A DNA stretch of 64,000 nucleotides from Candidatus Cloacimonadota bacterium (GTDB lineage Bacteria > Cloacimonadota > Cloacimonadia > Cloacimonadales > Cloacimonadaceae), in NCBI GenBank assembly GCA_029561955.1, contig JAKQWO010000021.1:1-64000 (forward strand), written 5' to 3'. The translations under genes were made by a program, and so were the position numbers. This document shows, piece by piece, positions 41,853 through 45,426 of the stretch (positions within the stretch are counted from its first letter, which is position 1; each line of letters begins with the position of its first letter). The notes under the pieces are model-generated. The model saw only the letters and a program-made list of their open reading frames with translations, was not told the origin of the DNA and made no database searches.

Positions 41853-43343
41853 TTAGACCCGTTCCATGGTCACAAAGTAGTCCCGATCACAATTCTTGAT
41901 CTGATATTTCCAGCCCGGATAGCCAGAGAAGAGCTTGTGCACCTGAGCATCGCTGTATAAGTATAAGGGACATCTGAGCTTATATCTAAGCTTCCTCTGC
42001 CAGGCCAGGAAGCCATCGGATTTTGGGAAGCTGAACATCGCCTTTTCCTTTGTCAGCTCCAACGCCTTGGCAATCACCAGCTCAGGCTCCTTGATGTAGT
42101 CCATAAATCCCATACAGATCATATAGTTGTACTGTTTGTCGTCCTTGTAGGTCAAAAAGTCTGCCACCTCAAAGCTGCATTGATCTTGCACCTGCGCCTT
42201 GGCCACGTTTTCCTTGGCCAAATCTATCATCAGTGGCGCAAAATCCAGACCGTGAATATGCCCCAAACCTTTCTGCGCCAGAGCCACCATATACTGTCCC
42301 GGCCCGCAACCCACATCCAGAGCCGTTTTATCCGCTCCAGCCTCGCAGGCATTGATCACATCCTGAAAGCGATAGAGCATGGCTTTACGAAAATGCTTGT
42401 TGATAAAGCGCCAGAAGGCATTGTTTTTGGAACCATAGATGGAATCGAAGCCCTCGGCATAGCCATCGAAGAAGCCGGCAGTCTTGTCCTCGCTGAATAG
42501 CTGCTCCTTGTCGGTTTCATATAAGTGCATGTATTCTCCGCAGGTTACGAAGCTGTTTTGCGAGAGGATAGCCCTGATCTTGCTCTCCACGGTATCGAGG
42601 TTGACATAGGAGCGGAAGTAGTTGACCGGCTGCATCTTAAAGCGAGGATGCTTAGGGTCTATCTCACGGGGATGGATGTAGAAAAGTGGCGTCTGATGCT
42701 GACTTTCCAGCCTGTCCACCATCTTCAGGATCAGTTTCTGCGGGAAAAGCCGCAAATATCCACCGCCGAAAAAGCAGATATTCTTGCCCATCACAGGCGT
42801 GACGGAGATGGGAATCTCAAACAGCTTACCATTGGTAGTCTTGATCCAATGGGGATTGAGCTCATCACTCTCGACTCCGCTGTCAAACCTGAGGCCGGGG
42901 AAGACGGAGGAATCATATTTAAAGCCCTGATCATAAAGCACATCCATCATCCAGTTCATATCTTCCGAGTGGGAAAAGCCCGGGCTGCGAAAGCCGATCA
43001 CTTCCTTGCCACAGATGCCTTCCAAAAGCGCCTTGCTGGCGGCCACATCCTCGGCAAACTCTTCACGCGTCATCTCAGATACCTTTTTGTGATACATCCC
43101 ATGTGAAGCCACTTCATGACCCCGAGCGTCGATCTCTTTGACCAGTTCGGGATGATGTTGAGCCACATAACCCAAGATAAAAAACGTGGCTTTCACACCA
43201 TAGTCATCCAAAATACGCAAGAGTTTTTGCGTGTTTTTCACCACCCGGTGATCCAGATCATCCCACTCTTCACGCGTGGGCACGTTCGGGCCTTCCACAG
43301 TGTGGAAATAGTCCTCTACATCAATTGTGAATATTGCTTTCAT
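41853..43343 (-). CDS. Polysaccharide deacetylase fused to SAM methyltransferase
   Basis: A 496-residue two-domain protein. Residues 1-285 form a NodB-type deacetylase close to the exosortase/PEP-CTERM-locus and DUF3473 branch: TIDVEDYFH (6-14), SHGMYHKKV (about 78), FRSPGFS (about 116) and HPREIDP. Residues about 295-496 form a class I methyltransferase with DVGCGPGQY (about 342). The known deacetylase branch modifies exported polysaccharide. The added methylase suggests N-deacetylation and methylation of one sugar or lipid-linked substrate. An AGGAGGT ribosome binding site seven bases before the ATG fixes the start. Confidence 0.82.
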   Translation of the reverse strand: MKAIFTIDVEDYFHTVEGPNVPTREEWDDLDHRVVKNTQKLLRILDDYGVKATFFILGYVAQHHPELVKEIDARGHEVASHGMYHKKVSEMTREEFAEDVAASKALLEGICGKEVIGFRSPGFSHSEDMNWMMDVLYDQGFKYDSSVFPGLRFDSGVESDELNPHWIKTTNGKLFEIPISVTPVMGKNICFFGGGYLRLFPQKLILKMVDRLESQHQTPLFYIHPREIDPKHPRFKMQPVNYFRSYVNLDTVESKIRAILSQNSFVTCGEYMHLYETDKEQLFSEDKTAGFFDGYAEGFDSIYGSKNNAFWRFINKHFRKAMLYRFQDVINACEAGADKTALDVGCGPGQYMVALAQKGLGHIHGLDFAPLMIDLAKENVAKAQVQDQCSFEVADFLTYKDDKQYNYMICMGFMDYIKEPELVIAKALELTKEKAMFSFPKSDGFLAWQRKLRYKLRCPLYLYSDAQVHKLFSGYPGWKYQIKNCDRDYFVTMERV

Positions 43344-43857: not shown

Positions 43858-45096
43858 TTACATGACGATAAACTTACCCGATTTGATTCGGTCTCTTTGT
43901 TGCACTTTATACAGATACATGCCCGAACTCAAGCCCTTGCCGGCCAAATCCAGCGACACATTGCCGCTCAGGCTCTCGGTTTCCAAGACCTTGCGTCCTT
44001 TGATGTCGTAGACGCTCACCTTCATGGTTGCTTTGGCCTCGCTTTCAAAGTTCAGGATGCCGTTTTTGAGCGCGGGATTGGGATAGACGTTCATCTTCGG
44101 CTGCAGCACCAGGTCGTCATTGCTGGTGGGCGGGATGTAAAACTTCAGATCTGAACTCGCATGACCCAAGGTGTATTGCGCTTTGGGAGTCAGGTCGTAG
44201 TTTCTCAGGTAGAGGATGGAGTTGTCTCCCCAATTCTGCTTGAGCAGCGCAATTTCCTCGCTGTTTCCATCCACGGTATAAGCGCCTGGCTGCAAGAGAT
44301 TTGTGTAGCCATTGATCACCTGATAGCTATCCGCCATATACAGATAATAGCCCAATCCCAAACCGTTTCCGACCAGTGCTCTTTCATCGTCAGCGATCCA
44401 GATACCGCCCGGTTGACCGCCCAAGTCTACCGAGGCTTCGATCTGCAAAGTGGCAATGTCGATCACCTGCACTTTTCCAGCGATGTTACCCCAATTGCCC
44501 GTGCAGGATACATGAAGTTTATCCCCGTGCACGATCACAAATTGCGGATTTGTCCACAGGTCCATGGTGGTTTGCAGGCTGAAGTCGTTCAGATTGATCA
44601 CACTGAGGCTGGAGCCGACAAAGTCGTTTTGATAGCCGCCGGTATTGGTGACGAAGAGGTAGTTCCCATCTGTCGCCAAGCCCTGTGGTGCAGAGCCCAC
44701 GGTCAGAGAGGCTACCACACTGCCGCTTACCAAACTGATCTTGTAGACCTTATCCGAAAAAAGACCTGTCACATAGAGGTAGTCGCCTATTTTGAGGACG
44801 TCATAGGGATTTGAAGAGGCTTCCACGTTGATGTAGCGGATTTGGGCACCGGTGTGACGGTCGAGTTCCAAGATGGCGTTGTCTCCACTGCAAACCACCC
44901 AGATATGATCCTCATCGAGGTCCATCAGGTTGGCGGTGAGCCCCAATTGGGCAAAGTTGTTGTTCACTTCGTTTGTTTCGGTGTCGATCCGCGAAAGGGT
45001 GCGTGACTCCGAATTGATCACATAAATGTAGGCAGCAGCGAGCTGGAGCATCAAAAACATGCTCAACAGCGTGAGTAAAAGTCTTTTGTTTTTCAT
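43858..45096 (-). CDS. Secreted beta-propeller protein under B12 riboswitch control (BtuG-like candidate)
   Basis: A 412-residue precursor. Signal peptide (1-21, LLTLLSMFLMLQLAAA). Residues 25-320 are YVTN/YncE-like beta-propeller repeats (IWVVCSGDNAILELD, LYVTGLFSDKVYKI, LFVTNTGG, VQVIDIATLQ). The tail NVYPNPALKNGILNF, VSVYDIKGRKVLETE, SSGMYLYKVQ is a type IX-like sorting domain. ATG 45096 (GGAGA upstream) is preferred over the open frame from 45156. A cobalamin riboswitch lies 85 bases upstream. Bacteroides BtuG, a surface propeller that binds cobalamin very tightly, is the obvious analogue. B12 binding is inferred from control plus fold, not shown. Confidence 0.8.
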   Translation of the reverse strand: MKNKRLLLTLLSMFLMLQLAAAYIYVINSESRTLSRIDTETNEVNNNFAQLGLTANLMDLDEDHIWVVCSGDNAILELDRHTGAQIRYINVEASSNPYDVLKIGDYLYVTGLFSDKVYKISLVSGSVVASLTVGSAPQGLATDGNYLFVTNTGGYQNDFVGSSLSVINLNDFSLQTTMDLWTNPQFVIVHGDKLHVSCTGNWGNIAGKVQVIDIATLQIEASVDLGGQPGGIWIADDERALVGNGLGLGYYLYMADSYQVINGYTNLLQPGAYTVDGNSEEIALLKQNWGDNSILYLRNYDLTPKAQYTLGHASSDLKFYIPPTSNDDLVLQPKMNVYPNPALKNGILNFESEAKATMKVSVYDIKGRKVLETESLSGNVSLDLAGKGLSSGMYLYKVQQRDRIKSGKFIVM

Positions 45097-45181
45097 GACT
45101 TTAAGTTCTCCTTGAATTGTGTTTTTTCTCAGGGGAACTACTTCGCCTTCAGCCACATAAACCGTATGGCATCAGAAAGCT

Positions 45182-45341
45182 TTGGTGGCAGGTTTCCTGG
45201 CTCGCGACGGCCTTTTACCGACCCAGTCTTCCCAAACCTGAACAGCTCAGTGACAGGATCAAGCCCTGAAATGTCGCTTACAGTGGCGGTTACCGCTCTC
45301 GCTTCTCACGAGATTCCCTTTTACCTATTTAGTAGCACCAA
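45182..45341 (-). ncRNA. Cobalamin (B12) riboswitch
   Basis: Read on the minus strand it opens with TTGGTG, which pairs with CACCAA at the 3' end (P1). It continues with AAAGGGAA, GGTAACCGCCACTGTAA (CCGCCACTG at 45289-45281), CACTG, GGGAAG, and the near-invariant B12 box AGCCAGGAAACCTGCC (45202-45187). Order and spacing fit the AdoCbl-type riboswitch. It controls the propeller gene starting at 45096; when ligand is bound, expression is expected to fall. Confidence 0.93.
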
Positions 45342-45426
45342 CTGTTTGAATGCCACTATAATAATGTCTGCAATGCTGTCAATGAGAAAAGCTAAAAACA
45401 CTCTTTTCTGGTTCGTGATGCCCCTT

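Follow-up and report, generated by a model that had tools for sequence, protein, structure and literature searches.

BtuG proteins are the closest described counterparts of the protein analyzed here. They have been described as surface lipoproteins exclusive to Bacteroidetes, they bind B12 with femtomolar affinity, and BtuG2 is anchored by an N-terminal lipidated cysteine (PMC6143338). The corrinoid bound by BtuG2 sits on one face of the propeller, over its central cavity (PMC10404256). The type IX secretion system (T9SS) has already been mentioned in Cloacimonadota (PMC11285876). In our search of the full-text literature, with subscription papers and preprints outside its scope, neither a BtuG-like protein of Cloacimonadota nor a BtuG-like protein or other B12 receptor exported as T9SS cargo was described.

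We analyzed a riboswitch-controlled gene in a stretch of 64,000 nucleotides of Cloacimonadota DNA (hereafter, the window). This gene very probably encodes a BtuG-like surface corrinoid receptor that is exported by the T9SS, is not lipid-anchored, and works with an unlinked BtuB (Table 1). The protein is homologous to BtuG and is predicted to work like it. Because the lipid anchor, one of the defining features of BtuG, is missing, and because corrinoid binding is a prediction, we regard the protein as a BtuG-like variant rather than as BtuG proper.

Table 1. Features of the riboswitch-propeller locus, in the order of transcription (positions in the window).
Feature	Position	Strand	Evidence
Sigma-70-like promoter TTGACA-N16-TATAGT, directly 5' of the aptamer	45355..45382	-	11/12 match
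Cobalamin riboswitch aptamer (RF00174, full length)	45170..45354	-	88.3 bits, E 1.8e-20; single copy in genome
Putative expression platform: anti-Shine-Dalgarno element AGUUC(CCC), paired with (AAGG)AGAACU	45104..45139	-	MFE fold; pairing in relatives
BtuG-like secreted propeller gene (predicted function), 412 aa; ATG start at 45096, stop at 43858; SD AAGGAG at 45113-45108	43858..45096	-	
Sec signal peptide, residues 1-22, without lipobox cysteine	45031..45096	-	sequence; lipobox scan of 61 orthologues
Seven-bladed beta-propeller, residues 23-325; N- and C-terminal strands close blade 7	44122..45030	-	AF2 pLDDT 94; Foldseek
Type IX C-terminal sorting domain (Por_Secre_tail), residues 337-412	43861..44088	-	PF18962, TIGR04183

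The propeller gene is preceded by a complete cobalamin riboswitch. A sequence-only reading of this DNA had recognized a complete B12 riboswitch on the minus strand, and cmscan of the window confirmed it: the RF00174 match spans model positions 1-189, and its score is well above the gathering score of 31.5 bits. This copy is the sole match in the 2.13-Mb genome (99.5% completeness). The distance from riboswitch to gene had been put at 85 bases; measured from the end of the aptamer to the ATG, it is 73 nt. The 3' end of the promoter falls one base before the aptamer match, and RNA made from it would begin at the aptamer 5' end. In family-f1 relatives, TTGACA is equally placed in most and a good -10 match is present in some only. 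A GTG at 45156, taken from the list of open reading frames, is an unlikely start because of the AAGGAG at 45113-45108.

The domain order proposed by the same reading, a signal peptide followed by a YVTN-like propeller and a sorting tail, was found as described. The propeller is of the YVTN/YncE type (residues about 23-325), and the tail (residues 337-411) scored 46.3 bits with PF18962 (cut-off 27) and 49.3 bits with TIGR04183 (cut-off 23). Elsewhere on the minus strand of the window (41853-43343), one 496-aa frame encodes a fusion in which an XrtA-type polysaccharide deacetylase with DUF3473 (residues 1-272) is joined with a class I methyltransferase (about 320-450).

The predicted structure of the propeller resembles that of BtuG. 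Using Foldseek, we compared the AlphaFold model (mean pLDDT 94) with the PDB. The first match was 1l0q, followed by BtuG at ranks 2-17, so that 16 of the best 17 matches were BtuG, in line with the likeness suggested from sequence. The TM values of these matches reached 0.81 of the target, and for most the rmsd was about 3 A. A profile of 61 orthologues gave a single alignment to BtuG1, covering residues 27-327 (E 6e-24), and the alignment with BtuG includes a long GGY-type loop in blade 3, which 1l0q does not have. Because sequence identity between the model and BtuG is 14-18% and 1l0q outscores BtuG both in sequence and in the Foldseek ranking, the fold alone is no proof of function. With loops assigned from DSSP, the BC and DA loops, which share one face of a propeller, were more conserved than the AB and CD loops (p 1e-4).

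The pairing of riboswitch and propeller recurs in other Cloacimonadota, as the sequence-only reading had anticipated. The propeller was present in 103 of 125 genomes and an RF00174 riboswitch in 101. In 38 of the 125 genomes, the riboswitch immediately preceded the propeller gene (gap 65-148 bp, median 78). Another 31 genomes had it 2-9 kb upstream, on the strand of the propeller, and there a TonB receptor gene lies between the two and adjoins the propeller. In the window's family, the pair was found in 36 of the 45 propeller-bearing genomes, again with a gap of 65-148 bp. Other families have long operons with the order riboswitch-BtuF-BtuC-(NifU/NifS/Rrf2 opposite)-BtuD-BtuB-propeller, in which the propeller comes last. 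The products are a periplasmic binding protein, a FecCD permease, an ABC ATPase, a TonB receptor and the propeller; the first four are named BtuF-, BtuC-, BtuD- and BtuB-like by Pfam and NCBIfam, with scores below the strict equivalog cut-offs. Within the window's own genus, the genomes G030 and G031 still have riboswitch, BtuB and propeller together. In 15 genomes, BtuB has a riboswitch directly upstream. The NifU/NifS/Rrf2 trio is found on the opposite strand, in or beside the B12 cluster, throughout the phylum (L075:9082-11355, L077:6892-9141, and others), and in the window's genome it is still beside BtuDB (L087:796-3041, minus strand).

Some relatives have the propeller without the riboswitch. 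The sequence-only reading had held that such relatives would count against it, and they do exist: five genomes of one genus, which we take to be Cloacimonas (G001, G003, G004, G006 and G009), contain the propeller and no riboswitch, and no hidden riboswitch was found in them even with relaxed thresholds. A sixth genome of that genus (G008) has a riboswitch, cut by a contig edge, directly upstream of the propeller. Because sister lineages retain the riboswitch, its absence from the five genomes is best read as lineage loss. One of the five, G001, is complete-looking (a single contig of 2,246,820 bp) and has the propeller and BtuDB and no cobalamin riboswitch anywhere. In another relative (G005), genes that by eye resemble those for an ECF-type transporter are divergent from the riboswitch-propeller gene (L072:346-3783, minus strand) and are a possible alternative importer.

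The linkage extends beyond the phylum. Our search for propeller homologues covered 290 genomes, and strong homologues were present in 19 non-Cloacimonadota genomes, some of which may be Bacteroidota. All 15 loci that we fetched from outside the phylum had RF00174, and in 14 of them a BtuB-like gene was close to the propeller. The ends of these propellers (L145-L159) varied: there were T9SS or FlgD-like tails, lipoprotein starts (L154, L157 and L159) and, by eye, dockerin-like ends (L151, L153 and L155). One dockerin-type member was placed with good support inside a tail-bearing clade, and the tree gave no well-supported number of changes in anchor type. At one riboswitch locus (L146:5425-10868, minus strand), a single BtuB-like gene is between two BtuG-like propeller genes.

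The propeller could be a surface component of the B12 locus that has some other job, such as holding the loops of BtuB, binding a B12 carrier of the community, or serving as a structural lid, and bind no corrinoid. The evidence consists of fold, linkage and conservation, propellers of the YVTN type are generic, and 1l0q is as good a match as BtuG, all of which such a component would fit. We nevertheless consider it unlikely: femtomolar affinity for B12 is known for the closest characterized proteins, which occupy the same place in their operons (PMC6143338), one face of the propeller is selectively conserved, and where BtuB is no longer under a riboswitch the propeller still is.

The C-terminal domain is predicted to direct export by the T9SS. 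The Por_Secre_tail was found in 59 of the 61 propeller orthologues and a lipobox-like motif in one of them; the window's protein has no lipobox. The genome encodes the T9SS translocon SprA/Sov (about 2100 aa; 475 bits in frame, cut-off 200), C25 peptidases (PorU-like and other C25 counted together) and about 98 tail-bearing proteins. The earlier proposal of a C-terminal sorting signal in place of a lipid anchor is supported by the Por_Secre domain of a protein without lipobox and by the SprA/Sov encoded in the same genome. The FlgD_ig model matches some homologues as well as or better than Por_Secre, as it might if the tail were a FlgD/Ig-like domain without a T9SS signal and the protein a periplasmic B12 reservoir or a carrier to BtuF. 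We regard this as very unlikely given the near-universal Por_Secre_tail of the orthologues, the translocon and the many tails genome-wide, and the lipoprotein homologues of the same propeller family elsewhere, which fit a surface role.

Genes for the other steps of B12 uptake are present elsewhere in the genome. B12 genes are scattered in the window's family, and in the window's own genome BtuD-BtuB is on contig C63 (L087) and BtuF-BtuC on contig C1 (L139). The permease of L139 is the only FecCD permease that was found in the genome, and the propeller is the sole B12 gene with a riboswitch. For the BtuB homologue (G000:C63; L087:7736-9865), the best NCBIfam model was TonB-B12, with a score below the equivalog cut-off, and the best 10 PDB matches of our model of this TonB receptor were all BtuB, those from BtuBG complexes first. 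The sequence-only statement that there is no adjacent btuB is true of the locus, and has to be qualified: a BtuB homologue is encoded elsewhere in the genome, and in most other lineages of Cloacimonadota btuB directly adjoins the propeller. That the riboswitch is left over from an operon that has decayed or moved, with the propeller beside it an unrelated passenger, as a single gene at a site from which BtuB and BtuFCD are gone might suggest, is scarcely credible and is refuted by the phylum-wide linkage, in which most propeller-bearing genomes of the family keep the pair and the propeller ends the B12 operons of other families.

The organism probably salvages corrinoids, since its genome encodes B12-dependent enzymes (methylmalonyl-CoA mutase and lysine 5,6-aminomutase) and has neither CbiC nor CbiD. 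Of these corrin-ring genes, CbiC was not found in 21 genomes and CbiD was not found in 50.

We propose the following for the BtuG-like receptor. When intracellular B12 is low, the riboswitch would leave the ribosome site open and the propeller would be made. It would pass the inner membrane via Sec and the outer membrane via the T9SS, using its C-terminal domain, and would be retained at the cell surface. Corrinoids would be bound on the conserved face of the seven-bladed propeller and handed to the BtuB-type TonB receptor, and then to BtuF and BtuCD, with these partners encoded at two other loci. When B12 is plentiful, the ligand-bound aptamer would lower expression, probably by hiding the Shine-Dalgarno site. 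Corrinoid binding, docking to BtuB, T9SS export and the direction of the switch are what we infer, the last from the riboswitch family. By propeller topology, blade 7 is the exit point of both the N-terminus and the tail, and a C-terminal anchor could therefore hold a lid from nearly the same corner as an N-terminal lipid. It is also possible, if rather improbable, that the propeller works apart from BtuB, as a free T9SS-exported corrinoid scavenger, made under the sole B12 riboswitch of the genome and either shed or widespread on the cell surface, which is later delivered to BtuB, with no one-to-one hinged lid.

The likeliest mode of control is translational repression by B12, as judged from Shine-Dalgarno pairing in relatives. 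Most of the 20 relatives compared show pairing of the Shine-Dalgarno region with a GUUC-type element that lies upstream of it: 78% of cells were paired, versus 37-45% in slid controls. In the window, the anti-Shine-Dalgarno hairpin is in the MFE fold and was no better than in shuffled sequences (z -0.85 to -1.2); the window's own genome weakly supports the switch mechanism. A pairing of 9-11 bp between the 5' leader and the anti-Shine-Dalgarno element was clear in seven relatives (G002, G005, G012, G014, G015, G042 and G046). At L052, L053, L046, L058, L059 and L060, the leader (GTGACTTGA) pairs over 9-11 bp with the flank of the element (TCAAGTCAC), which suggests an antisequestor in those relatives. 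There was no such pairing in the window's own genus, and we therefore do not claim an antisequestor for the window's gene.

If the protein is BtuG-like, then receptors of the BtuG type reach beyond Bacteroidetes into another phylum and further lineages. The propeller-BtuB pair would be kept while the anchor changes (lipid, T9SS tail or dockerin-like end), making the capture module separable from its anchor, and this bears on whether the BtuBG lid needs an N-terminal lipid hinge. Annotators would also gain a rule by which to name the B12 receptors of uncultured anaerobes relying on scavenged corrinoids.

We compared the locus with known systems. With BtuG1-3 of B. thetaiotaomicron (PDB 8bmy, 8ptd, 8okv and 8blw) it shares the seven-bladed propeller with a full-length profile match, the linkage to a B12 riboswitch and BtuB, and, as predicted here, a surface role in a corrinoid salvager. 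BtuG differs in being N-terminally lipidated with an LES, whereas the window's protein has a C-terminal T9SS sorting domain and no lipobox, is from another phylum, and is encoded away from btuB. The receptor model from the window's own genome is best matched by the BtuB of the BtuB-BtuG 'lid' complexes (PMC10404256), but the tether here would come from the C-terminus. Homologues of BtuB, BtuF, BtuC and BtuD are all present, as in E. coli BtuBFCD; E. coli has no propeller, and here the genes are spread over three loci that have one riboswitch between them. The archaeal S-layer YVTN propeller 1l0q belongs to the same repeat family and is the top single match in sequence and in Foldseek, but it lacks the long loop of blade 3 and has no B12 context. 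With the C-terminal domains of type A T9SS cargo (TIGR04183; PMC11285876), the protein shares a C-terminal beta-sandwich sorting domain that scores above the curated cut-off.
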